NCBI GenBank assembly: GCA_019113245.1
Contig: DXHU01000015.1
Span: 1 to 64,000, forward strand
Reading direction: 5' to 3'
Source of the DNA: Candidatus Ornithospirochaeta avicola
GTDB lineage: Bacteria > Spirochaetota > Spirochaetia > Sphaerochaetales > Sphaerochaetaceae
DNA: 64,000 nt
The notes beneath the pieces were generated by a model. The model saw only the letters and a program-made list of their open reading frames with translations, did not search any database and was not told the DNA's origin. Shown here piece after piece: positions 3,652-20,133 of this stretch (the stretch's first letter is position 1; every line of letters begins with the position of its first letter). Both the position numbers and the translations under genes were made by a program.

Positions 3652-3714
3652 CTGCCATACACATTCTTGTGGTGTGTTATCTTGTCATTCCAATAGAAAT
3701 TGGATGGAGGTATT

Positions 3715-5070
3715 ATGATTTTAAACTTTATGATTTCTGGTTTTGTTGAAAGTATGGAAAAGGTGCTCGCCTCTAACCATATCAGCAGAGTTGAGGACCC
3801 AGCAGTATTTTGTACCGAAACCACAAAATCAAAGAAAACTGACACTAGACACAAGACTGACCCATATGAGACGCTAAAAGAGCTTCTTAAAAAAGGTCCC
3901 CGTCAGGAAATTGATGGCATGACCAATACTTGCTATTCATACTTTAATCATGTAATTGGTAATGACATATATCCTGGAATCATCTTCAAACAGACCAATA
4001 GCAGTAATAATAAGGAATATGTTTTCCTACTTGAGGAAGACACATCAGAGAATACGTACTTTTTGTATTCCCTAAAGAAAAGCACTCTAAAATACTTCAT
4101 AAGTAACACAATATATAATTCCACTGGATTAATATATGGCTTCGAGAAGTGGTGCAAATCTTATATAGATTCTGCATTCTTATCCGGCAATGTCGCAATC
4201 TATAACAATTACCTCTCAATGCTTTCGGGGCTTTCCCTCTTGCAGAACTCCATTGAGGGAACACTTCTTAAAAAGCATAATATTGATTTGCACAATGATC
4301 TTCAGATGGGATTAGTCCGTGCTGAAGAAACTGTTTATTCGCCTGAGCACTTAAAGGACATGAGATTCCTTTACTCGTCTTATATCATGGGGCTCTTCAG
4401 CTTCATAGAACATGTGGCAGTACTCATTCTCCCGTTCTGGTATTCACTTCGTGATACTTATACTTACTGGAATGATTTCTGCAATGGCTTTCACCCAAGC
4501 AAATTTGATACATACCATGACTTCTGGACCAGTAAGCTGTACTGGATTGATTCATTTGTTGAAACATTGTGCAAATTCAAGAGATTCGACTCCAAGTCTC
4601 CACAAGGCTCATTTTCATTTGATGCGGACGAAAACCAAAAACTAACAAAGCGGCTATATGAGCGGCTTAAAGTCGATTATAGGAATCCTGTTCACCATGG
4701 TTTTTCTACAGGAGAAAACAAAACCGGCTTATCCATGGAAGTCCCTTCACTAAAGAAGATTGTATTCTTCAACACGCCTCCTTTACTTCGTGAACTAGAT
4801 ACAACTACTTATGAACAAGCGAAAAAACTCCTAGCGCTCTTTAATTCACAAATCAAATGCCATAACGATGAAATTTTCAAATATATATCTACAGGGTGGA
4901 ATATTCCTGTGGATTGTTCAGAACTAGCCAAATATGTTGTCAATCACGACATGGATGATTTTATCTCGGAATACAACTCACAAATCTACTCCAAGAAAGA
5001 TATCCTCATTGAATCATTCATGAACGGCTATGGATATAACTGGGCCTCTATTACCGGGAGGAAATACTGA
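3715..5070 (+). CDS. Orphan island protein with HEPN-like RX4H motif
   Basis: The 451-aa protein matches no family that I recognise. Near residue 325 it has DYRNPVHHG, which fits the R-N-x(2-4)-H signature of HEPN RNases (RX4H, followed by G as in many HEPN-like proteins), set in helical sequence. HEPN proteins often act as ribonuclease toxins or abortive-infection effectors, and defence genes on both sides make that plausible. This is inference from a short motif. The second ATG (3715) is preferred over 3700 because GGAGG lies 4 nt before it. The gene stands alone, with a strong hairpin terminator right after it. No MNT-type antitoxin is adjacent. Confidence 0.55.
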   Translation: MILNFMISGFVESMEKVLASNHISRVEDPAVFCTETTKSKKTDTRHKTDPYETLKELLKKGPRQEIDGMTNTCYSYFNHVIGNDIYPGIIFKQTNSSNNKEYVFLLEEDTSENTYFLYSLKKSTLKYFISNTIYNSTGLIYGFEKWCKSYIDSAFLSGNVAIYNNYLSMLSGLSLLQNSIEGTLLKKHNIDLHNDLQMGLVRAEETVYSPEHLKDMRFLYSSYIMGLFSFIEHVAVLILPFWYSLRDTYTYWNDFCNGFHPSKFDTYHDFWTSKLYWIDSFVETLCKFKRFDSKSPQGSFSFDADENQKLTKRLYERLKVDYRNPVHHGFSTGENKTGLSMEVPSLKKIVFFNTPPLLRELDTTTYEQAKKLLALFNSQIKCHNDEIFKYISTGWNIPVDCSELAKYVVNHDMDDFISEYNSQIYSKKDILIESFMNGYGYNWASITGRKY

Positions 5071-5305: not shown

Positions 5306-5364
5306 TTCGATTCCGATCAGCTCCACTACTCGCAACTCCCTCTACATCAGGGAGTTGTTTCTTT
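5306..5364 (+). repeat. Middle att copy of the tRNA-Ala 3' end plus terminator
   Basis: Matches 197-255 at 57 of 59 positions, including the whole terminator hairpin (5333-5341 with 5349-5357). It separates island A from island B and would be the right end of A and the left end of B. The near identity suggests that island A integrated recently compared with island B, whose distal repeat is only 20 nt. Confidence 0.85.
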
Positions 5365-5418
5365 TATAAACCGAAATCGCATCAGAAGGAATATTACTTC
5401 GGCAATAGCCGTCTACCT

Positions 5419-6758
5419 TCAAATCACTTCCCAGTGGCCATCCTTGTCACTTCCAACTCTTCTGACAAGTCCTGCTTCACTTAGACTTCTAAGATAATTC
5501 GCTACTGAAGCTCTTGATATATTGAACATCTTACTGAGAGGCTCATATGTACATGAAGGATTCTCTTTAAGAACTTCAACAGTTCGAATCTTGATTTCAG
5601 CACGAGATAGTCTCTCTGTGCTTTTCAGCCCAGAATCAGATTTAGAGTCTGAATTAGACTGTAAATCATCTTCAAAGCCAGGAACAAACCTGAAAACGAC
5701 CTTGATCATGTCATCATGTATCTCGAAGATGCTCCTGTCGTAATACCGGAGTATCCTGTTCATGCCGGAGTCAAGCTGCTCCACCATTTCAACGTCGTGG
5801 AAGATTCTCATGATTTCCCTGTTGCGTGGGCGGCTTACGCCGGAGAAGAAACACTCCTCAGTCATTCCATCAGGAAGACCACCATGTGATGTAAGCTCAA
5901 GCCTGTCGGAATAAATCTCTACAACGGGAGTGTAGCCTCGACTGTAATCATTATGAACGAGCATATTGATTAGAGCCTCCATTGCAGAAATCGGCTCAAA
6001 TATCTTTCTTTCAAGCCTTAGCTTCGGCGTTATCTTCGTCCATGTCTGGTTCTCGACGAGGAGACAATCTGCAAGCTTGTGAGCAGTCGTGATAATACAG
6101 TTGAATCCATACTCAGAACTCTCTATTTGTTTACACTTGTCAATTCCGGCTTATCTGGCAAACTTGAATGTCAGATGATTGTTGTCAGTCATCAGATAAG
6201 CAACGAAATTGTACTTTCCCTCTGGAGTCAGAAAATCGAGAGTCTCTGCAAAACTGTCATTAAGAGGATGCTTCTTCTCGCTGTAATAGCTCTTCAGCTG
6301 TTCGAATTCAAGATTCTGGCTTGGGGAAACGATTGTAGCCAATGTCGTAGGCACCCTTTTGGCGTACATCTCCCGGATCATGCGTTCAGGCATCGGACGA
6401 CATGAAGAACCGACTCTGTAATAGCACCCCTTTGAGCTCATGCCGTACTTTGCGATGTAATATGGCCTGTCAGATCCAGCAGAGACGGTCACTTTCACAA
6501 GATGCTTTCCACCCTCTGCAGCTTCCACTTCAATATCGAAGAGGCAAAGGCATGATGGATGAACATTCTCAGATAGACGCTGTGCGATGCGCTTCTGGAT
6601 ATCATCAGGATCTAAAACTCCATAGACTGTGCCATCATTAGCCAGACCGAAGACAAGCTCTCCACTAAACGTGTTCCGAAATGAAACCACCTCTTTCTCA
6701 AGGCCTTCAACGTCTTTTGTAAGTTCTCTCTCTTATATTCAATTACTCTTCCTTCTAT
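5419..6758 (-). pseudogene. Decayed AlbA_2 / RecG-like ATP-binding regulator
   Basis: This is the last gene of the type I operon and is broken at least twice. An N-terminal AlbA_2-type part (FSGELVFGLANDGTVYGVLD and onward, to 6151) and a C-terminal ATPase-like part with a winged helix (from about 5982) lie in one frame. They are split by a single TAA at 6151-6153, with coding-quality sequence on both sides. Further upstream IEGRVIEYKRE (about 6758-6727) and LTKDVEGLEKE lie in different frames, which points to a second lesion. Intact relatives are about 450-480 aa and are annotated as putative DNA-binding or RecG-like transcriptional regulators. Function is presumably lost unless the stop is read through. 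Confidence 0.8.
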
Positions 6759-6770
6759 TGGCTTCCTTTT

Positions 6771-9700
6771 TTACTCATTATCATTAAATTCATACAGGCC
6801 AAGACCGGAGTATTTATCGAAGAAAGACTGAAGTTTCTCAATGATGGATTTCTTCCTCTCAATCTTTTCCCCTCCGAAATAAGACATTGGAGGCATGATC
6901 TTATCTATGCCCGTTCCTGTCGTCTTCATGACACCATCACGGAAAGAATTCTCTACAAACCTCTTCGTCTCATACTCAGGCATCTTCTCTGCAGCAATCA
7001 GTGCATCAAGATCCTTCTGCTCCTCTTCCAATACATACTGGAACCACTCTTCACTGATGGAGGAATTGACTTCCCCTTCAACATTGATCTTGCCAATGAA
7101 ATCCTCAATGAGTTGTTTCTTGCTTCTCAGCTGAGGATTAGAATCAATGATTCTGCGGATTGATTCGATGATTTCCTTATCCTGGCAGTTGTTATCATGA
7201 TATTTCTCGACAAGCATCAGGATGTAATCGATATTGATCTCAACCTGCTTTATTAGTTCCATCTCGAAGACGATATCATCAGATATATCCTCTTTCTCCT
7301 TGTCTTTTGTTTTCCTGTACTTGTCGTACAGATCAAGGTATGTACTCTGGTAATCCTGCAAATCACGGGCGGATAGATCTGTCCGTTCTGCAAACTGATC
7401 AAAAGAAAGAAGGATATTCCTCAAGCTAAGCAACTGGCTGAAAAGCTTTATGAAACGCTTCTCTGCTTTCTCTCCCACAATCTGCAGGCCTAGAGGATAC
7501 TCTTCCTTGATGATTTCCAGAAGTTCAAGATAGCCGAGATGGTGCCGTCCTTTATCATCGTCATAGCCATTCAGGTAGTCTTCATAACTCTTTAGCAAGA
7601 CAATCCCGCTTGCATTCTTATCTCCAAAGAGAGCAATGGCATCATCTGTTTCTTTCTGAAGATTCCTGAAACAGACGATATTGCCGAATGTCTTCACAGA
7701 GTTGAGTATTCTGTTTGTTCTGGAGAATGCCTGGATGAGACCATGCATCTTCAGGTTCTTGTCAACCCAGAGTGTGTTCAGAGTCGTTGCATCAAAACCT
7801 GTAAGGAACATGTTTACGACGATGAGAATATCGACCTGCTTGTTCTTCATCTTCTGTGACAGATCCTTGTAATAATTCTGGAATTTGTCAGCAGAAGTGT
7901 CAAAGCTTGTGTGGAACACTTCATTATAGTCATGAATTGCATCTTCAAGAGAATCTCTTGAGGACTGATCGAGATCATCAGTCTCGAATCCCTCCTCATC
8001 AAGCAGGCCATCAGGGTTGTCACTGACCGCCTCGTTTGCAGCAAAGCTGTAAATCATGGCAACCACAAGCTGTATGTTGCTTTCAGCAAGCTGCCTCTTG
8101 AATTCCTTATAGTACTTGATTGCCACAGGTATCGAAGAGACTGCAAAAATCGAATTGAAACCATTCAGACGTTTGTCTTTCAGTGAATAGAAGGAATTGC
8201 GCTTAGTCTTCTGATCAAAGTGCTCAATGATATATCCGACTACATTGGAGATTCGTTCAGGATCGGCCATAGCCTTCTCCCTGTCGATATCATAGACATC
8301 CTTGTCGCTTACACCTTCCTTCTCCTTCATCGTGTTGATGTAGTCTATTCTGAACGGCAGGACATTACCGTCATTGATGGCATCGACAATCGTATAAGAA
8401 TGAAGCTGGTCTCCAAATGTCTGGGGCGTTGTCAGCATCCTTAGGTCGCTTCCACGTCCAGCGTTGGCAGCAAAGATTGGTGTCCCTGTGAAGCCGAAGA
8501 GATGATAGTTCTTGAATGCCTTCACAATCCTCTTGTGCATATCGCCGAACTGACTTCTGTGACATTCATCAAAAATAATTACACAATGGCGAGTGTAGAC
8601 AGGATGAGACTTGTTTGCACTGATGAAGTTATCAAGCTTCTGGATTGTAGTGACGATGATCTTATATTCATGAGGACGGCCTTTCTCATCCTTGTCCTCA
8701 AGCTGACGCTGGAGGACTCTGGTTGATTTATTGCCGTTGGCAGCACCTTTCTCGAACCTGTCATATTCTTTCATCGTCTGATAGTCGAGATCCTTTCTGT
8801 CTACGACAAAAAGTACTTTCTCAATGCCGGAAACCTTGGTAGCAAGCTGGGCAGTTTTGAAGGATGTAAGCGTCTTACCACTTCCTGTTGTATGCCAAAT
8901 ATAACCACCAGCATCAATTGTTCCCATTTTTTTGTAGTTGGTGGAAGTCTCTATTCTGTTGATAATTCTCTCAGTTGCCACTATCTGATAAGGTCTCATC
9001 ACAAGCAGAAGCTCTTCAGAAGTGAACACACAGTACTTCGTCAGGATATTGAGAAGCGTATGCTTGGCGAAGAACGTCTTGGTGAAGTCAATCAGATCAG
9101 GGATGATGTTATTCTTCGCATCAGCCCAGAAAGAAGTGAACTCAAAGCTATTGCTTGTGTTCTTTGACGCTCTTCTTCCATACAATTCCCTGATATGACT
9201 GCTTCTGGTTGTGTTGGAATAGTATTTTGTGTGAGTACCATTGGAAATGACGAAAATCTGCACATACTCATAGAGTCCACAGGCTGCCCAGAAGCTATCC
9301 TTCTGATAGCGGTCAATCTGGTTGAAGGCTTCCTTAATGGCGACACCTCTTCTCTTCAGCTCAACATGAACAAGAGGAAGCCCGTTGACTAGGATTGTAA
9401 CATCATATCTGTTCTTGTAATTGCCCTTTTTTTGTTCAAACTGATTGATGACCTGAAGCCTGTTATTGTGAATATTTGATTTGTCTATGAGAGTGATGTT
9501 GACTGTAGAACCATCATCTCTCTTGAGATTCTTTACATTATCTTCCTGGATTGTGCGGCTTTTCTCGGCTATTCCATCATTGGGATTTGCAACAATCTGC
9601 TTGAAGAACCGATTCCACTCACTGTCAGTGAAAGTGTAGTTATTCAGCAGACTAAGCTGTGTTCTCAGGTTATCAACAAGCTCTTTATCACTATGGATTG

Positions 9701-9854
9701 GCAAGTAGGAATAACCCTGTTCCCTGAGCATCTTAATGAACTCAGCTTCAAGTGCTGCTTCACTCTGATAAGAATCAGACCTGGCAACCTTGGAGACATA
9801 TTCAGTTACAACAGTACTCTCATTCGTGGACATCACGATATTGTATGTGCTCAT
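6771..9854 (-). CDS. hsdR: Type I restriction enzyme R subunit (HsdR)
   Basis: A 1027-aa motor and nuclease subunit. The endonuclease core is at 151-167 (D151 and VELK, a PD-ExK-type fold), Walker A TGSGKT at 323-328, the DEAD-type box DECH at 429-432, and FTGTP at 455-459. A coiled-coil-rich C-terminal part should bind the HsdM2S core. It translocates unmethylated DNA with ATP and cuts at a distance. The ATG overlaps the stop of the half-hsdS by 4 nt (9851-9854), so it is in the same operon as hsdM and hsdS. Length and motifs are complete, so restriction should be active if expressed. Confidence 0.95.
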   Translation of the reverse strand: MSTYNIVMSTNESTVVTEYVSKVARSDSYQSEAALEAEFIKMLREQGYSYLPIHSDKELVDNLRTQLSLLNNYTFTDSEWNRFFKQIVANPNDGIAEKSRTIQEDNVKNLKRDDGSTVNITLIDKSNIHNNRLQVINQFEQKKGNYKNRYDVTILVNGLPLVHVELKRRGVAIKEAFNQIDRYQKDSFWAACGLYEYVQIFVISNGTHTKYYSNTTRSSHIRELYGRRASKNTSNSFEFTSFWADAKNNIIPDLIDFTKTFFAKHTLLNILTKYCVFTSEELLLVMRPYQIVATERIINRIETSTNYKKMGTIDAGGYIWHTTGSGKTLTSFKTAQLATKVSGIEKVLFVVDRKDLDYQTMKEYDRFEKGAANGNKSTRVLQRQLEDKDEKGRPHEYKIIVTTIQKLDNFISANKSHPVYTRHCVIIFDECHRSQFGDMHKRIVKAFKNYHLFGFTGTPIFAANAGRGSDLRMLTTPQTFGDQLHSYTIVDAINDGNVLPFRIDYINTMKEKEGVSDKDVYDIDREKAMADPERISNVVGYIIEHFDQKTKRNSFYSLKDKRLNGFNSIFAVSSIPVAIKYYKEFKRQLAESNIQLVVAMIYSFAANEAVSDNPDGLLDEEGFETDDLDQSSRDSLEDAIHDYNEVFHTSFDTSADKFQNYYKDLSQKMKNKQVDILIVVNMFLTGFDATTLNTLWVDKNLKMHGLIQAFSRTNRILNSVKTFGNIVCFRNLQKETDDAIALFGDKNASGIVLLKSYEDYLNGYDDDKGRHHLGYLELLEIIKEEYPLGLQIVGEKAEKRFIKLFSQLLSLRNILLSFDQFAERTDLSARDLQDYQSTYLDLYDKYRKTKDKEKEDISDDIVFEMELIKQVEINIDYILMLVEKYHDNNCQDKEIIESIRRIIDSNPQLRSKKQLIEDFIGKINVEGEVNSSISEEWFQYVLEEEQKDLDALIAAEKMPEYETKRFVENSFRDGVMKTTGTGIDKIMPPMSYFGGEKIERKKSIIEKLQSFFDKYSGLGLYEFNDNE

Positions 9855-10462
9855 GCTTCTTTCTCCTTAAAATCCAGGAGTTTATCTCTGTAATATTCGT
9901 ATTGTTTCTTCCTAGCTTCGATTTCTGCTGGGAGGCCTTCAGAAAGGTCATTGCATAGACTATCGAATTTATTTAAAACACTGATTATTGCTTTCTGATA
10001 TTCAATTGACGGAACACTTATTCTTATTTTAGCTAATGAATTAGCATTAAATTGAGGTTGCCCACCTGTAGTCACCAATGCATTTGCCTGCTGCCAATAC
10101 ATGGAAGATTGCGCAAAGAACCAATAGTATCTATTCATAAGCTTTGAGTTATCTGGCTGAATCTTTATAAGGAATGAAGCATAAATTCCTTTTGTTCCAT
10201 CAGGTATTGAAACGGTCTTACCAAAAGTAGCTCCCGTTCTTGCCATTAGCAAATCACCTGGCTCAATCAGAAAGTCTTTGTTTTCTTTAGTGATATCAAT
10301 ATATTTTGCTGGCGTTGTTCTTAAGCATCCATACTCATCAATATCTGTAATACGTATGAATCGTACAGTACCAACATCTGCGGCTTTATCTGTAAACCCA
10401 TATGTAAATTTCGCAATATCACCTAGATTGTATGTCTTGATAAAGCACAGCTCTTCATTCAC
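9851..10462 (-). CDS. hsdS: Half-length type I specificity subunit (single TRD)
   Basis: 203 aa: one target recognition domain (about 8-145) followed by one conserved helix ending KKQYEYYRDKLLDF, the same ending repeated twice in the full HsdS. The start is GTG at 10462, overlapping the hsdS stop (GTGA), so translation depends on coupling or on the G-rich run acting as ribosome binding site. Alone it could dimerise into a palindromic-type specificity unit, as known for half-HsdS proteins, or be inert. If the G8 tract upstream gains one G, this frame is joined directly to hsdS. It has no separate promoter that I can see. Confidence 0.85.
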   Translation of the reverse strand: MNEELCFIKTYNLGDIAKFTYGFTDKAADVGTVRFIRITDIDEYGCLRTTPAKYIDITKENKDFLIEPGDLLMARTGATFGKTVSIPDGTKGIYASFLIKIQPDNSKLMNRYYWFFAQSSMYWQQANALVTTGGQPQFNANSLAKIRISVPSIEYQKAIISVLNKFDSLCNDLSEGLPAEIEARKKQYEYYRDKLLDFKEKEA

Positions 10463-11679
10463 GGCATACCCCCCCCGTTGAAGTTGAGCAGTCTGTCCCG
10501 ATAATGTTCATGTTGTTTCTGTCGCAAGGAAATCTCAGCAGGGAGACCTGCGGAGATATCAGTAGTAAGAGTGTTGAATTTATCTAGAATACTGGAGATT
10601 TCTTCTTGTACTGCTCTTGGAGGAACAGGGAGTTGCCATTTTGCAAATCCACTCATATCAACAGATGCAAAATTCCCTACTCGGATATTATCTTTGCACC
10701 ATTTGTCTAGATTGAACAAAGCATAATAGACATACTTCAAGTCAAGCTTTGATTTCCACTCCGGCTTACAAGTCAAACAGGTAAAACGTTGATTTGCCAA
10801 GAATGGCACAGTAATCCATGCATGCTCACCAATGGTTGCAGATGTTGAAACAATAAAAGAATCTGCGGGGAATAAGTCTCCTTTCGCAGCTTCCGGAGAA
10901 ACATGCTGAATTGCATCGTCTAATATTCTACCATTCTCTCGAATATCTTCTAGTCTAAACCATGGTATTGTACCGTTTTCCCAGAATTCAGGATTTGATT
11001 TTGATGGCGTATAACCATTTCTGAAATCAAATATCTCTGATAAAGGCTTATATTCCACCTTTTCAGGCCCACCGCAGATCTGATCCAGCATATCCCTGAT
11101 CCGTTTGACAATCGCCGTCTCATCATCAAATGTGAGTAGTTTGTCTCTGTAGTACTCATACTGGGCGCGCCTCGCTGTAAGCTCCGCTGTAAGCTCCGCT
11201 GTAAGCTTGGTGAAAGAATCCAAGATACGAACAATCTCTTCCTGAACAGTGAGAGGGGGTACTGGAATTTGTAAACGCTTTATCTCATTTGCATTCATAT
11301 TGGGAACACTGCTACTTTTACTTTCAATTTTTTGAGAAGACAAAGCATAGTATAAAAATCTAGCATTGATATGATTGTCCTTGGGCACAACAACTTTCAG
11401 ACGAATAATCGGAGTAAAATGGCCTTCTCTGAAATAAACAGCTCCTGTGTTTGCTCCAATTGAAGAAATTACAGTTGCATCTTCTTCTACTTCATATGAA
11501 CCTGAATAACCATAAACATCTTTTCCATTTCCCCATATGGCATATGGATGGTTATTATCTTGATTCTTCTGACTATCAGCAGGAGGTTCTCCTCCTGTTA
11601 TAACTGTACATACATCAGCAATTCTCTTATATTCCACCCCATCAGGACAATATTGCTTTATCAGATCATCAAGCTTACT
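10459..11679 (-). CDS. hsdS: Type I specificity subunit HsdS (two TRDs)
   Basis: 406 aa with TRD1 (about 15-150), central helix with two TAEL units (161-168) then ARRAQYEYYRDKLL, TRD2 (about 215-370) and a distal helix ending HYRDRLLNF. It sets the bipartite recognition sequence of the methylase and restriction complexes. ATG 11679 is chosen over the upstream frame start because AAAGGAGG lies 8 nt before it. It overlaps the rhuM-like stop by 5 nt. The 3' end holds a run of eight G that encodes the unusual tail NGGGMP, so the present stop is a frame effect of that run. Both the TAEL repeat and the G run are slippage-prone. Confidence 0.93.
   Translation of the reverse strand, partial: SKLDDLIKQYCPDGVEYKRIADVCTVITGGEPPADSQKNQDNNHPYAIWGNGKDVYGYSGSYEVEEDATVISSIGANTGAVYFREGHFTPIIRLKVVVPKDNHINARFLYYALSSQKIESKSSSVPNMNANEIKRLQIPVPPLTVQEEIVRILDSFTKLTAELTAELTARRAQYEYYRDKLLTFDDETAIVKRIRDMLDQICGGPEKVEYKPLSEIFDFRNGYTPSKSNPEFWENGTIPWFRLEDIRENGRILDDAIQHVSPEAAKGDLFPADSFIVSTSATIGEHAWITVPFLANQRFTCLTCKPEWKSKLDLKYVYYALFNLDKWCKDNIRVGNFASVDMSGFAKWQLPVPPRAVQEEISSILDKFNTLTTDISAGLPAEISLRQKQHEHYRDRLLNFNGGGMP
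10469..10476 (-). repeat. G8 homopolymer at the hsdS/half-hsdS junction
   Basis: Eight G on the coding strand, 7 nt before the hsdS stop. With 8 G the hsdS frame ends in GGGMP. With 9 (or 6) G the frame reads on as GGGYAVNEELCFIKTYN into the half-hsdS without a stop. Homopolymers of this length are classic phase-variation tracts, and an equivalent poly-G switch is known for NgoAV of Neisseria gonorrhoeae. Confidence 0.85.
11173..11208 (-). repeat. 12-nt tandem repeats encoding TAEL in the HsdS spacer
   Basis: Three head-to-tail copies of a 12-nt unit (11173-11184, 11185-11196, 11197-11208, the last with one mismatch) encode LTAE-LTAE-LTAR in the central helix. In EcoR124I-type enzymes a change from two to three TAEL units lengthens the spacer of the recognition sequence by one base. 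Confidence 0.88.
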
Positions 11680-12742
11680 CATTGTCTTTGTCCTCCTTTG
11701 ATTCGATGGACTGGATTTCAAGCATCATCCTGTCAAAATCGCTTTGATACAGTCTGTCCTGGATAACCCTGTATTTCTCAAACTCGCTCAGAGCATGTGC
11801 CTTTGCAAGCTCTGCAGATATCTTTCCATTGTCCTTGAGCACAGTCCTGTCCCAGAGAGTAAGGAAGCTGTTGAGGCGTTCTTCCCAGTCTTCCATGGTC
11901 ATCGGGATATGTCGCTCCGCCATATCCTCAGCGAAATCAAGATATGCGGAAACAATGCGTTCAAGCTTCCTCAGTTCATCTTCAGAAAGATAATTCTTTG
12001 CAACAATGACATCATAACTGTGGATTTTTCCATTTGGAGAACCATCCCAGTTTGTGAGTCCCATATGTTCCTTTTCAGAATCCGCCCTATTGTATATGAC
12101 CTCAGCGGCAGTCTGACCATGAACGCTGTAATGTAGCTTGTTCTGCACAGCTGCAAAGAAGCGATGAGTTGCTTTGGCAGCCGGATCATAATCCACAGCT
12201 GTGGCATAGATGTCTGTCACTTTCTGGTAGAATCTCCTTTCAGAAAGCCTTATCTCCCTGACTTTATCAATGAGCTTGTCAAAATACTCTTTGGTGAGTT
12301 GTGAACCGCCGTTCTTCAGGCGTTCATCATCCATTACCCACCCTTTGATGGTGAAATCCTTTACAATCGTGTTTGCCCACTTCCTGAACTGTACAGCACG
12401 TTCATTGTTGACCTTGAAGCCGACAGCAATGATCATCTGGAGATTGTAGTGGATGACATCTCTTGATACTTGTCTGTTTCCCTCAGTTTGAACTATCCGG
12501 TATTTTCGGATAGTTGCCTCTTGAGACAGTTCTGAATCTCCATAGATTTTCTTGATATGGTCATTGACTGTGCGCACATCAACACCGTATAAAGCCGCCA
12601 TCATTTTCTGTGTGAGCCAGATATTCTCATTTTCATATCGGAGCTCGATGCTTTCATCAGAACCACCTGTGGCTGCAACATATGTCAGATACTCGGCAGC
12701 AGAAGAATGAATAATCGATGTATCTTTGCTTTTCCTGCTCAT
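11675..12742 (-). CDS. RhuM-family protein encoded within the type I operon
   Basis: A 355-aa protein similar to 'virulence RhuM family' proteins. The N-terminal part is KilA-N/phage-regulator-like ([21 protein letters not shown], about residues 42-62, resembling a helix-turn-helix), followed by [19 protein letters not shown] and a longer helical C-terminus. RhuM proteins are frequent passengers of type I operons, but their role is not established. Regulation or DNA binding is a guess from the HTH-like segment. The ATG overlaps the hsdM stop by 4 nt and the stop overlaps the hsdS start, so it is fully embedded in the operon. Confidence 0.8.
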
Positions 12743-14295
12743 CCTTCTATCTCCGCAATGATTCTGTCTATCTCATCTCTGAGTAGCTGCTCTCTTGCAA
12801 CAATCTCTTTAATCTCGGCATTGAGTTTGACGATATCTATGACTTCCCGTTTGTCCTCTTTCTCAACATATGTACTTACGGAAAGATTGAAATCATTCTC
12901 CTGAATCTCTGAATAAGGAACACAGCGGGAAAAGTATTCAACATCCTCACGGGATGTGAATTCATTTACAATCTTCTCGATGTTCTCAGGGGTAAGTTTA
13001 TTGTTGTTTGTCACCTTTTCAAACTCATTTGAGGCATCGATGAAAAGAATTGTATTATCTGTCTTGGACTTCCTGAGAACCATGATGCAGGTAGCAATGG
13101 AAGTTCCAAAGAAAAGATTATCAGGAAGCTGGATTATGCAATCCACATAGTTGTTGTCTACAAGGTATTTCCTGATCTTCTTCTCGGCACCACCTCTATA
13201 CATGATACCAGGAAAACAGACTATAGCTGCTGTGCCATTAGTCGCAAGCCATGCAAGGGAATGCATGATGAAAGCAAGGTCTGCTTTTGACTTCGGAGCC
13301 AGAACTCCCGCCGGACTGAATCTCTCATCATTTATGAGGATAGGGTCATCATCACCTTTCCATTTGATGCTGTAAGGCGGATTAGAGACGATGACTTCAA
13401 AAGGCTCATCATCCCAGTGCTGTGGATTTAAGAGAGTATCACCATATGCGATATCAAACTTGTCGTAATCAATGTCATGAAGGAACATGTTGATTCTGCA
13501 GAGGTTGAATGTTGTCGGGTTTATTTCCTGACCGAAGAATCCATTTCTGACATGATCCTTGCCAAGTATCTTTGCAGACTTCAGGAGAAGGGAACCAGAA
13601 CCACATGCAGGATCATAGACTTTATTTACTTCTTTCTTCCCTACAACAGCAATCCTCGTCAGAAGCTCAGATACTTCCTGGGGTGTAAAGAACTCGCCAC
13701 CGCTCTTTCCCGCATTGGATGCATACATGCTCATCAGGAACTCATATGCATCTCCGAATGTATCAATATTGTGGTTCTTGTAGTCTCCAAGCTCCATGGC
13801 TGCAATGCCATCCAGCAATTTGACAAGCTTCTCATTTCTCTCAGCAACGGTTTTACCGAGCTTGTTGCTGTTCACATCGATATCTTCAAAGAGTCCTGAG
13901 AAATTCTTCTCGCTCTGTGTTCCTTTTGCAGAGTCTTCAATATGCTTAAGTATTGTCTCCAAGGTGACATTGAGATTCTCATCATCTTTAGCTCTCTTTC
14001 TGAGATTACAGAACAGCTCGGAAGGAAGAATGAAGAAGCCTTTTGTATTAATCATGTCCTCACGGGCATTCTCTGCCATCTCATCAGAAATGGATGCATA
14101 GCTGAAATCTGAATTTCCAGCCTTCCGCTCTCCATCATCTATGTAGGCAGCAAGATTCTCTGAAATATAGCGGTAGAACATTATTCCAAGGACATATGCC
14201 TTGAAGTCCCAACCATCAACACTGCCCCTCAGCTCATCAGCTATTGCCCAGATGGCACGATGTAGCTCTTCTCTCTCTTGGTTTCCGTTAGCCAT
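12739..14295 (-). CDS. hsdM: Type I DNA methyltransferase subunit HsdM
   Basis: A 518-aa adenine methyltransferase. The helical N-terminal domain (1-165) mediates subunit contacts. GEFFTP (200-205), SAM motif I DPACGSG (228-234) and catalytic NPPY (305-308) follow. With HsdS it forms the M2S1 modification enzyme, and with HsdR the restriction complex. It starts 17 nt after the stop of the XRE regulator and is the first large gene of the operon. No lesion is visible. Confidence 0.95.
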
Positions 14296-14312: not shown

Positions 14313-14522
14313 TTATTTTTCATCAGGAACAATTTCGACGATGTCATTCAATGTGCAACCAAGGCATGTGCAGATTTTTGCAAGAACTTCAAGCCTGACA
14401 TCCTCGTTCTTTCCCATTTTTGCAATGGCATTCGTACTCACACCAGCCATTGAATAGAGCTGGCTTCGCTTGAGTCCTTTATCAATCAACAATTTCCATA
14501 ACTTGTTATAACTTACAGCCAT
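14313..14522 (-). CDS. XRE/Cro-type HTH regulator heading the type I operon
   Basis: A 69-aa single-domain protein. The helix-turn-helix covers about residues 16-40 ([20 protein letters not shown]), and the C-terminal [14 protein letters not shown] helix is typical of small XRE regulators. Such proteins time expression of restriction relative to methylation. It is the first gene of the minus-strand operon, and an inverted repeat 30 nt upstream (14552-14565) is a candidate operator. Confidence 0.9.
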
Positions 14523-14565: not shown

Positions 14566-14943
14566 GTACAATAGAATATTGAATATCTCAAGAACTATAG
14601 GAATGAAAACATGAAAGAGATTCATATCAATACTGGATTCACACCGAATGATATCGACATTCTGAAGACCTTCATTGACAAGAGTCATTAAGATGTATCA
14701 CGAGAAATACAATAGTGCACATACCGTCATGTGCATTTTGAGAATTCAACATAGAGTCTTATCAATGAGTAGTGTCATCCATTATTTTGATGCCGAAGTC
14801 AAAGGCGTTGTTTGCCTGTATATTCAGGGATGGAAGAATCCTTATCTTATCATCAATGTGTACGACCATGATGTCGGAACAACTATTGAAAAAGTCTCAA
14901 TCGTGACAGCCACAGTTCATGCAACGCTGAAGAAGTAAGAGGA

Positions 14944-15340: not shown

Positions 15341-17986
15341 ATGAACAGGTTTCAATATGGCTCTACTTGGGTTAAATCGGACTTTCATCTTCACACTATA
15401 AAAGACAAAGAATTTGAGTACATTAATAACACTGAATATCCAGACGAGAATGTTTTCCCCAAAGAGTATATTGAAGCCTTAAAAAATGCAGGGATTGGGT
15501 TAGGCGTCATTACAAATCACAACAAATTTAATAAAGGAGAATTTGATTGTTTACGAAAGCAAGGGAAAAAGGAAGAAATATATCTTCTACCAGGCGCAGA
15601 ACTATATATTTCTGGAGGAAGTGAGGGAATACATATCCTTGTCGTTTTTTCTGATGACTGGATTTCTGGAGAGGATTACATTAGCAAATTCATTGACAGC
15701 CTATTTCCCGGAGTCTCGCGTACACAAGTTTATAATGACACACGATCCAAGTTTTCATTAGAGCAAATGGTCGGCATGCTTGATGACTACCATAAGGACT
15801 ATTTTTTAGTTTTTGCTCATGCCAACTCAAGTCATGGTATTTTTGATTCTATGAAACCTGGAGCGGCCATGCAAACAATAAAAACTATTGCAACAACAGG
15901 GACTGGCGAATCCAGAATTATTGCCTTCCAGAAATTAAGCGATACCACATCTGAATTGTTTCCCCAATTCGAACTTGCTCCACCAGCTAGAGTCGAAGGT
16001 TCCGATCCTAAGATGATGGAAAATGTTGGACATAGCAAGAATTCATGCTGGCTCAAAATTGGAGCGCCCAGTTTTGACGCAGTAAAACTGGCAATTGCAG
16101 AGCATGAAACACGCATTCTATTAGACGCACCTCCTGTAACAAAGCACTCGTATATTAAGTCTATTTCCTTTGATGGAGGGTTTCTTTCTGGGACAAAACT
16201 ATCATTCTCTCCCGAGCTTAATAATCTGATTGGGATTAGGGGTAGTGGCAAATCTGCAATTCTTGAAATGATTAGATATGCGTTCGACTTGCCATTGCCA
16301 GAGAAAATAGAAGACTGTGTGTATAAAGAAGGGCTTAGAAAACATGCTATTGGAAGTGGAGGTAGAGTTGAAATTCTTGTTTCCAATGAAATAGGGAACG
16401 AATACAAAATCAGCAGGACTTTTAATCGATCCCCTGAAGTATTATTCAATGGCGAAATCGTTCCAAACTTGAGAAGCACTTCCGTAATTCATCGTCCGCT
16501 TTTCTTCGGACAAAAAGAGCTAACTGCTAGAAATGAGGATTTTTATTCAAACTTGATAGACAGACTTGTTGGTGACAAACTGTCTAATATTAGAAAGAAA
16601 ATCAATGAAAAAAAACTTTTTGTTACAGATTTGCTGTCAAAAATCAATAGACTTGGTTCTCTTGAAGACCAGAAAGTTACCATTCAAGCCTCTATTGCAG
16701 AAAACACCCTAAAGCTTAGCCAATTTGATCAATTTAACGTGAAAGAGAGACTATCAACACAAACCGATTTCAATACAGACGAAAGAACTCTTAAAAATGT
16801 AAGGGAAAAATACAATGACTACAAAAATATTATTACCGAAGCTATCACTTCTATTCAAACTTTAGATATTAAGTGCTCTTTAAGTGAGCGAAACAAGAAT
16901 TTTCAACATAAAATAGACCAATTTGCAACTACAGCAGAGCAAATTCTATCCTCACTATTTGACACTCTCAGTAAGGTTTCAAATTTATTATTTAATATTG
17001 ACTTAGTCATTGCAGATTTTTCTCGAGAAAAAGATAAGAGCTTTGAAGAAACTGATCAAATAAAACGAGAACTTGAAGCCCAGATTAGAGCTTCAGGTTT
17101 TATATCGAATATCAATCTTGAAGAATATCCTTTATTGCAGGATAAAATACTACAGGATAGAGAACAACTCAAGCTTCTTGAAAACAAATCAAAAAACAAA
17201 GAAATATACCTAAGTAACTTGAATACTGCCTTATCTGAGCTAGGAGAATTATGGAGAGAAGAATTCAGAACCATTCAAACCGAACTAAATAGAATTAATG
17301 AAAGTCAAAATGCAGTGAATATCACTTCCGAATATTGCATGGATAAAAAACAATATTTGGCTTACATGCAAAGTACGTTCAAGGGAAGTAGAATTAGTTC
17401 CAGTACATTCTCGCAACTTATTGAGAAATATGTTGATTTCATCGAAATGTATCGCAATTTCAACGAGTGCTGTAATTCCATTTCTGGAGATAATACAAAA
17501 TTAGCTTTTGAGAAAGCTTTCGAAGAACACATTGATGATTTACTTTGCTACCAAGTTCCCAATAAATATTGCATCACCTATAACGGAAGAGATATTACAT
17601 CATTATCATTAGGGCAACGAGCATCTGCGATGATTCTCTTTATTCTAAGCCAACAAGACAATGATTTAATCATCATAGATCAACCAGAAGATGATTTAGA
17701 TAACCAAACAATTTATCAGGATGTAATAAAAACCGTAATGAATGTAAAGCCAAATATACAATTCATTTTTGCAACCCATAATGCAAACATTCCAGTATTA
17801 GGCGATTCGGAGATGGTTCATTGTTGTTCTGCGACAGAAGAAGCAGGTATTACGCATATTAATATTAAATCCGGTAGCCTTGATGATGCTACAATACGAG
17901 ATCAAATTATCACGATAATGGAAGGTGGTCATGATGCGTTTGAAAGAAGAAAAGAGATATACAAGCTTTGGAAGAATCAAAAATAA
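15341..17986 (+). CDS. PHP-domain/SMC-like ATPase fusion (TrlF-like), probable defence protein
   Basis: An 881-aa protein with two parts. Residues 1-260 form a PHP phosphoesterase-like domain with metal-ligand blocks DFHLHT (14-19), ITNHN (57-61), PGAEL (84-88) and FAHAN (158-162). The second block has N where canonical PHP enzymes have D. The rest is an ABC/SMC-type ATPase: Walker A GIRGSGKS (298-305), a long coiled coil (about 400-690), a signature-like LSLGQRAS (about 752) and Walker B IIIDQPEDDLDN (about 778-789), then FATHNANIPVLGD. This matches 'TrlF family AAA-like ATPase' proteins. PHP-SMC fusions are associated with defence islands, but I cannot name a proven activity for this one. 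It is AT-rich, stands alone, and is the last gene before the distal att site. Confidence 0.8.
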   Translation: MNRFQYGSTWVKSDFHLHTIKDKEFEYINNTEYPDENVFPKEYIEALKNAGIGLGVITNHNKFNKGEFDCLRKQGKKEEIYLLPGAELYISGGSEGIHILVVFSDDWISGEDYISKFIDSLFPGVSRTQVYNDTRSKFSLEQMVGMLDDYHKDYFLVFAHANSSHGIFDSMKPGAAMQTIKTIATTGTGESRIIAFQKLSDTTSELFPQFELAPPARVEGSDPKMMENVGHSKNSCWLKIGAPSFDAVKLAIAEHETRILLDAPPVTKHSYIKSISFDGGFLSGTKLSFSPELNNLIGIRGSGKSAILEMIRYAFDLPLPEKIEDCVYKEGLRKHAIGSGGRVEILVSNEIGNEYKISRTFNRSPEVLFNGEIVPNLRSTSVIHRPLFFGQKELTARNEDFYSNLIDRLVGDKLSNIRKKINEKKLFVTDLLSKINRLGSLEDQKVTIQASIAENTLKLSQFDQFNVKERLSTQTDFNTDERTLKNVREKYNDYKNIITEAITSIQTLDIKCSLSERNKNFQHKIDQFATTAEQILSSLFDTLSKVSNLLFNIDLVIADFSREKDKSFEETDQIKRELEAQIRASGFISNINLEEYPLLQDKILQDREQLKLLENKSKNKEIYLSNLNTALSELGELWREEFRTIQTELNRINESQNAVNITSEYCMDKKQYLAYMQSTFKGSRISSSTFSQLIEKYVDFIEMYRNFNECCNSISGDNTKLAFEKAFEEHIDDLLCYQVPNKYCITYNGRDITSLSLGQRASAMILFILSQQDNDLIIIDQPEDDLDNQTIYQDVIKTVMNVKPNIQFIFATHNANIPVLGDSEMVHCCSATEEAGITHINIKSGSLDDATIRDQIITIMEGGHDAFERRKEIYKLWKNQK

Positions 17987-18147: not shown

Positions 18148-18167
18148 TTCGATCCCAATCAGCTCCA
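18148..18167 (+). repeat. Distal attR-like 20-nt repeat of the tRNA-Ala 3' end
   Basis: Matches tRNA positions 197-216 (T loop to discriminator base) at 19 of 20 positions, in the same orientation. Similarity stops exactly at the tRNA end. It would mark the right boundary of island B and of the whole composite island. Confidence 0.75.
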
Positions 18168-19796: not shown

Positions 19797-20133
19797 TGAT
19801 ATCAGTCTCTATGAGATATACAAGGACAAGGAAAAAACTCTCCCCGGTGATAAGAGAAATTTCACAATTTAACAAGCAAGGAAACTGCAGGAATCAAAGG
19901 CAGGAGGCTTGATGCCGTCAGTACTTCCGGGCAGTTACAAGCTGGGGCCTTTCAGGGCAGCGGTAGTTGACTTTTCCAGACACATCGATGATTTTGCTTA
20001 TATATTGTTCACATGAATCAGCTCATAATATATTCAGGGCAGAAGAGTTTTATATAGATTACTCCCCCGTTTTTCTCCCTCTTTCCCGGCATTGCTCCGG
20101 GAAAGTCATTTCAATTACATGGTGGATCAAGAC
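19797..20133. other. Intergenic region without a recognisable gene
   Basis: About 340 nt between the AAA_14 gene and the TetR gene. I see only short open frames and AT-rich sequence before the TetR gene that probably includes its promoter. No tRNA, repeat or clear terminator is evident. Confidence 0.5.

Follow-up and report, generated by a model that had tools for sequence, protein, structure and literature searches.

TrlF of a Candidatus Ornithospirochaeta avicola genomic island: a solo form of a usually paired PHP-SMC ATPase family that recurs in restriction-modification and BREX operons

What does a protein that joins a PHP phosphoesterase domain to an SMC-like ATPase do at the edge of a bacterial genomic island? 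The gene that raises this question (15341-17986, + strand) lies in a 64,000-nucleotide stretch of Candidatus Ornithospirochaeta avicola (GenBank assembly GCA_019113245.1, contig DXHU01000015.1, positions 1 to 64,000), referred to here as the window. A sequence-only reading had described it as a PHP-SMC fusion with a long coiled coil, standing alone beside a type I restriction-modification (RM) system and an attachment site, and as a candidate anti-phage gene. It suggested structure prediction, comparison with TrlF-like and other SMC-nuclease systems and a survey of homologue neighbourhoods, and held that homologues found mainly in core-genome contexts would speak against this role.

The gene, delimited by its open reading frame, its match to NCBIfam model NF045780 and an AlphaFold2 model, encodes 881 aa from an ATG start. 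The PHP domain (residues 9-263; 15365-16129) carries HxH (H16/H18), the second metal block T58-N59-H60 (15512-15520, placed by alignment), GAEL (E87), FAH (H160) and K224 within G220-S-D-P-K (16010-16012), where canonical PHP domains, as in Ppl-like relatives, have His. The ATPase part contains a Walker A motif GIRGSGKS (298-305; 16232-16255), a coiled-coil region of long helices (residues 399-654; 16535-17302), an ABC signature SLGQRAS (756-762; 17606-17626), a Walker B/D-loop IIIDQPEDDLDN (777-788; 17669-17704) and ATHN at 811-814, with all features on the + strand. The motifs and the AlphaFold2 model (mean pLDDT 83.7, pTM 0.64) bore out the blocks and the coil described earlier. In the model, residues 9-263 aligned with the PHP domain of Endonuclease Q (EndoQ), a DNA endonuclease and the closest fold (7k30_A, Z 18.3, 218 aligned, 3.2 Å), and also matched TM0559 (2anu_E, Z 16.5); residues 270-850 aligned with SMC/Rad50 heads (1w1w_A, Z 17.3, 237 aligned, 3.1 Å; 4nck_B, Z 15.6, 258 residues, 3.5 Å) and with MukB and JetC structures. 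By sequence, the Pfam PHP model gave no match, Pfam detecting the ATPase part only, and a PDB search returned no relatives for the PHP half. A scan of viral contigs with the window protein gave seven pattern matches, none of them a true relative.

The comparison with TrlF-like proteins identified the family. The window protein matched NF045780 (TrlF family AAA-like ATPase) at 486.6 bits against a cut-off of 350, over residues 7-875 and model positions 2-944, and it has the TrlF layout of a PHP domain and an ABC ATPase with a long coil in one chain. The Ppl model NF042955 (172 bits, cut-off 1000) and the Spaf_1101 model NF045781 (176.4 bits, cut-off 475) fell below their cut-offs; the PADLOC Ppl model gave 144.7 bits over residues 6-871 and PADLOC AriA just 23.7 bits across 70 residues. 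PADLOC Wadjet models gave no matches for TrlF or for the four neighbours scanned alongside, and by fold the N-terminal domain is PHP rather than the calcineurin-like nuclease of Mre11-Rad50. Judged by these profile matches, the gene belongs to the known TrlF family and is not a new kind of protein. TrlF is a named family but little studied: in the open-licence literature searched, a study of temperature tolerance in Photorhabdus was the only relevant TrlF paper found, and no measured activity of any TrlF was found.

The island is anchored at a tRNA-Ala(GGC) gene (143-217, +), whose 20-nt 3' end (197-216) forms the left att copy. This sequence recurs with one mismatch at 5306-5325 (+), within a 59-bp copy of 197-255 (96.6%), and with one mismatch at 18148-18167 (+), 162 nt after trlF; none was expected from 100 shuffles, and no further copies with up to two mismatches were found elsewhere in the same genome. 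The island-edge placement proposed earlier therefore holds, with an att copy on one side of trlF and a type I RM operon (6771-14295) as its neighbour. That operon comprises hsdM (12739-14295), rhuM (11675-12742), hsdS (10459-11721), a half-length hsdS of 203 aa (9851-10462) and hsdR (6771-9854), all on the - strand; about 1 kb separates hsdM from the divergently oriented trlF. The island can be read as made up of two units added at the tRNA, one with a BsuBI/PstI-type RM system (313-2731), the next with type I RM, rhuM and trlF. No integrase was noticed in the subset of ORFs of at least 80 aa that was scanned.

Several other features of the island were recorded. The first unit, beside the tRNA, holds a complete-looking BsuBI/PstI-type restriction endonuclease with an Eco57I-like methylase (313-2731, -) and a 456-aa ORF (3700-5070, +) with no Pfam or PADLOC matches. 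The half-length hsdS directly follows the full one, a layout that could permit specificity switching via recombination, and immediately ahead of hsdM (14316-14522, -) lies the gene of a small XRE-type HTH protein (about 68 aa), likely the regulator of the RM operon. Adjoining hsdR, a gene with AlbA_2, HATPase_c_4 and winged-HTH domains (5340-6690, -) appears as two ORFs (5419-5982 and 6151-6690); it is split by an in-frame stop and its N-terminus lies in another frame. It has the look of a Schlafen-GHKL-wHTH pseudogene; Schlafen-GHKL-type RNases are reported beside BREX in the available text of PMC12839542, in which neither "PHP" nor "TrlF" occurs as a whole word. Beyond the island, a 93-bp repeat (about 19879-19971), with copies of 96-98% identity on contigs C1 and C21 of the same genome, lies where the alignment to a close relative (G062) breaks (19863 to 19971) and represents a small dispersed element.

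Comparison with other genomes supports TrlF being patchy and mobile rather than core, and homologues were not concentrated in core-genome contexts. It was found in 8 of 139 genomes of the family, including two in the genus (G000 and G038), in 22 of 390 genomes of the phylum, and in 212 plasmid records at E<=1e-100, of which 157 were conjugative. The congener G038 retains hsdM (87.8% DNA identity) and trlF (93.6%), with homology stopping exactly at 18167, the end of the right att copy, and G062 lacks trlF with flanks preserved at 14594 and 18010. At 35.4% the GC content of trlF is below that of the window (42.8%), and its GC3 of 30% compares with 40-64% in four other genes. Between the window and G038, trlF showed dN 0.024, dS 0.171 and dN/dS 0.14 (PHP 0.062, coil 0.228, C-terminal ATPase 0.059), and the window copy is under purifying selection. 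The adjacent hsdM had a dS of 0.90 in the same comparison, and trlF was therefore probably exchanged more recently than hsdM.

Neighbourhoods were counted in the best 80 of 543 relatives on genome contigs, drawn by similarity to the window protein; the fetch also used patterns containing NHNK and DQPED. Two loci (L046 and L096) ended at contig edges and were excluded, leaving 78 with room downstream. Among these best 80 of 543, a gene for a Schlafen/AlbA_2 plus HATPase_c_4/GHKL ATPase protein, trlG, lay directly behind trlF in 76 of 78 loci (73 by ORF calling, and L052, L068 and L076 by tblastn). Its start fell 9-24 nt before the last base of the last sense codon of trlF in 72 loci and 30 nt beyond that codon in one. 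The two loci lacking it were those of G038 (L023) and L090. In a Deltaproteobacteria MAG, trlF and trlG form one 1272-aa frame (L068:9977-13792), a fusion or an assembly error. The TrlG model was similar in fold to the nuclease cores of Schlafen/SAMD9 proteins (Z 9.3-9.9) and to GHKL ATPases, for example SpoIIAB (Z 10.6). Residue Q19, conserved in 70 of 71 TrlG sequences, presumably sits about where Schlafens have their second catalytic Glu, and a TrlG nuclease is thus only putative.

No trlG lies behind trlF in the window or in G038, and the sole TrlG-like gene in the window (5419-6690) is interrupted, with the whole RM operon between it and trlF. The description of the gene as standing alone was thus right for this copy, but it does not describe the usual state of the family: the window gene is a natural solo variant of a usually coupled pair. 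Solo trlF was also found on plasmids of E. coli, Citrobacter, Serratia, Listeria and Sulfitobacter; no TrlG was detected by tblastn in the seven solo plasmid flanks tested. In a FastTree phylogeny the solo genes, with the window's, formed five lineages, of which the Listeria lineage was weakly placed and the long-branched L019 was of unsure position. In ten of ten solo copies checked, the ATPase motifs and HHDHEHKDK are retained; L158 and L019/L157 show minor changes. Residues of a TrlG interface that might have been lost in solo lineages did not stand out clearly: of 247 conserved columns, the most divergent two solo sequences deviated at 61 and 53, and divergent TrlG-bearing sequences likewise at 41 and 39.

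This coupling raises the possibility, rather unlikely in our estimate, that TrlF is mainly a sensor or restraint, with TrlG the toxic effector, so that the solo TrlF of the window would be an orphan, lingering or borrowing an AlbA_2-GHKL protein in trans. The adjacency in 76 of 78 loci (best 80 of 543), mostly with an overlap of a few codons, and the single in-frame trlF-trlG frame (L068) are consistent with such a division of labour, as are the Photorhabdus mutations: in the part of that study available, growth arrest at 36°C was relieved when trlG or the operon was lost, and the relieving mutations lay in trlG and none in trlF (PMC7554251). Candidates for borrowing exist, since the same genome encodes other AlbA_2-GHKL proteins 27% identical to TrlG; however, the trlF-less G062 has such paralogues too, and the window's own is interrupted. 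A dN/dS of 0.14 with the tightest constraint on the PHP domain and the ATPase, and the retention of both active sites in five separate solo lineages, argue against this view.

The PHP site was compared in an alignment of 106 sequences (L118 and L120 were dropped for want of a full-length frame), of which 92 formed a TrlF-proper clade (SH-aLRT 100). The canonical PHP trinuclear site has nine ligand positions (H,H,x,H,E,H,H/C,D,H). Their counterparts in TrlF, which from known PHP structures we take to be positions 16, 18, 22, 60, 87, 160, 198, 222 and 224, read HHDHEH-K-D-K in 89 of the 92; two sequences have Q198 and one (L014) ends D-S, so that the string HHDHEH-K/Q-D-K covers 91 of 92. The window protein departs from the canonical set in having Lys at 198 and 224, and these two metal-ligand positions held by Lys appear, from the alignment, to be a real peculiarity of the TrlF site. 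The asparagine in place of the usual Asp in the second metal block, singled out by the sequence-only reading, is indeed present (N59) but is not special to the window gene, since N59-H60 occurs in all 92 TrlF-proper sequences; this constancy was partly selected for by the NHNK pattern in the fetch, though four sequences drawn by HMM (L111, L112, L116 and L117) have it as well. The change of His to Lys at the last ligand (D222-x-K224; K224 in 91 of 92, S in L014) is the informative, less expected one. Among the 14 NF045780 relatives outside the clade, D-x-H was found in 10, eight of which retain TDH (L103-L109 and L113) and two of which have TDY (L010 and L110); L114 has D-x-R, and L011, L115 and L119 have a degenerate PHP domain with QxN for HxH and E or A for the terminal His. 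A distant AlbA_2-GHKL gene adjoins L011 and L115 of this PHP-degenerate branch; none was found within the short flank of L119.

With two metal-ligand positions taken by Lys, the PHP domain of TrlF proper could be regulatory, non-catalytic or a nucleotidase rather than a nuclease, an explanation we consider improbable. K224 in 91 of 92 sequences, K or Q at 198 in the preceding block and the clearly degenerate site of other NF045780 groups (L011, L115 and L119) would fit it. Against this, every other ligand is invariant in the 92 sequences, the dN/dS of the PHP domain is 0.062, and the nearest fold is EndoQ.

The neighbourhood survey proposed earlier showed that relatives often sit in type I RM, BREX and type III operons. 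In the best 80 of 543 relatives, a type I RM subunit was found in the flanks of 22 of 79 loci (12 of the 36 with at least 4 kb on each side), with two or more different subunits in 17; typical orders were hsdM-hsdS-trlF-trlG-hsdR and hsdR-trlF-trlG-hsdS-hsdM. When genes of BREX and type III systems are counted too, modification-based defence genes were found at 35 of 79 loci (20 of 36 with at least 4 kb on both sides), and trlFG was flanked on both sides, on one strand, by such genes at 21 of 79 (15 of 36). These labels are approximate: those for HsdR and BREX came from two rounds of transitive phmmer, with drift by which some HsdS were labelled HsdM and some helicases BrxHI, and the family tallies took 81 of 111 neighbour proteins, the rest being near-duplicates or dropped for size. 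PADLOC checks, which covered L024, L031, L044, L055 and L085, placed pglX/pglZ around the L024 pair, PglXI/BrxHI at L044 and L055, and Mod/Res of type III at L031. As background, about 130 hsdR matches were summed over 149 genomes of the phylum (some genes being split), so that at about 3 Mb per genome a random 20-kb stretch is estimated to hold hsdR in well under 1% of cases; this estimate is from one phylum and the trlF loci come from many.

Such contexts suggest a guard of the neighbouring modification-based system, in which phage inhibition of the RM complex would free the PHP nuclease, as for PrrC in EcoprrI; we regard this as rather doubtful. It would accord with the 21 of 79 loci (15 of 36 with at least 4 kb; best 80 of 543) in which trlFG lies between RM, BREX or type III subunit genes on the same strand and with the co-occurrence of RhuM in 6 of 79. 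There are precedents, as far as the accessible text of the sources goes, in PrrC, PARIS and Ronin as effectors lodged in or guarding RM systems (PMC12409349) and in DarTG2 inside a type I RM (PMC12255303). The window trlF, however, is divergent from hsdM, about 1 kb off and exchanged separately (dS 0.17 vs 0.90), and the annotated flanks of the inspected plasmid solo copies contained no named RM gene.

Distinctly less probable than these is an action against plasmids, or in plasmid competition, of a Wadjet-like rather than anti-phage kind. The alignment of TrlF heads with JetC and MukB and the 157 of 212 strong plasmid matches on conjugative plasmids point that way; the lack of any PADLOC Wadjet match for TrlF or the four neighbours scanned, the chromosomal position of the window copy on a tRNA island and the many relatives in phage-defence operons (best 80 of 543) point elsewhere.

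The reading we favour, by a modest step beyond even chances, is that TrlF is a mobile defence protein in which a DNA(-end)-sensing, nucleotide-gated SMC head controls a PHP nuclease in the manner of Ppl, with an altered site and, in the window, without TrlG. In the available text of PMC12904381, E. coli Ppl is a PHP 3'-5' ssDNA exonuclease restrained by NTPs. Since TrlF has the Ppl architecture, an ATP-gated PHP nuclease sensing DNA ends would be its most likely mechanism. TrlF would, probably, dimerise through its SMC/Rad50-like heads and bind DNA or DNA ends, and nucleotide bound in the head would restrain the PHP domain. Infection, through invading or broken DNA or changes in the nucleotide pool, would then free the PHP domain, which would degrade nucleic acid as a metal-dependent nuclease and so may protect the host against phage or plasmids. 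TrlF would thus work like E. coli Ppl while belonging to a separate clade with its site changed from His to Lys. Because of the altered ligands its chemistry may differ from that of Ppl, and since the Ppl cut-off was missed by far and D-x-H is absent, a reaction in common with Ppl is not assured. The near-constant partner suggests that TrlF is often just half of a machine, most relatives presumably acting with TrlG; the Photorhabdus mutations, as far as that report is available, fit TrlG as the toxic part of the paired systems. A solo TrlF would then be left to depend on its own PHP domain, and the window protein probably acts alone, with this domain as its sole evident effector. What the analysis shows is the domain anatomy, the conserved active sites, the purifying selection, the mobility and the setting of relatives in defence operons; metal-dependent nuclease activity, end sensing, ATP gating and protection are inferred.

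A second joint reading, put forward tentatively and with less confidence, ties these forms together. TrlF-TrlG would be an unrecognised immune module of two genes that inserts between the modifying and the restricting components of unrelated methylation-based systems (type I RM, type III RM and BREX) and serves there as backup or guard; the temperature restriction of Photorhabdus would be an autoimmune side effect of the pair; and the TrlF of the window and of conjugative plasmids would be a single-gene form that arose more than once and has a PHP nuclease with Lys instead of a metal-binding His. TrlF is annotated widely (1131 plasmid records at E<=1e-5). New here is that trlFG is a coupled pair found time and again within operons of RM and BREX systems, and that solo forms occur naturally. 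This turns an orphan annotation into a testable guard or backup hypothesis, offers a reason for the harm that a "temperature restriction" locus does to its host, and supplies natural single-gene variants useful for biochemistry.

Among known systems, PARIS AriA, Mre11-Rad50 and Wadjet JetC resemble TrlF in that an ABC/SMC-type head governs a nuclease; in TrlF the predicted nuclease is a PHP domain of the same chain, and none of the partner proteins of those systems was seen with the window TrlF. PrrC and DarTG lie within type I RM operons, as do embedded trlF relatives, but they belong to other protein families, and the window trlF adjoins its RM operon rather than lying inside it. The Spaf_1101 family (NF045781) has the C-terminal ATPase part in common with TrlF. 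E. coli Ppl likewise combines PHP and an SMC-like ATPase in a single protein from a single gene; its Ppl-like relatives carry TDH and D-x-H where TrlF carries TNH and D-x-K. From the usual member of the TrlF family (NF045780; temperature restriction locus F in the available text of PMC7554251), the window gene differs in having no trlG behind it and in its long stem (1.15) inside the clade; it shares with that family a full-length match and the PHP-ABC layout, and it is about 37-42% identical to most of the aligned members.
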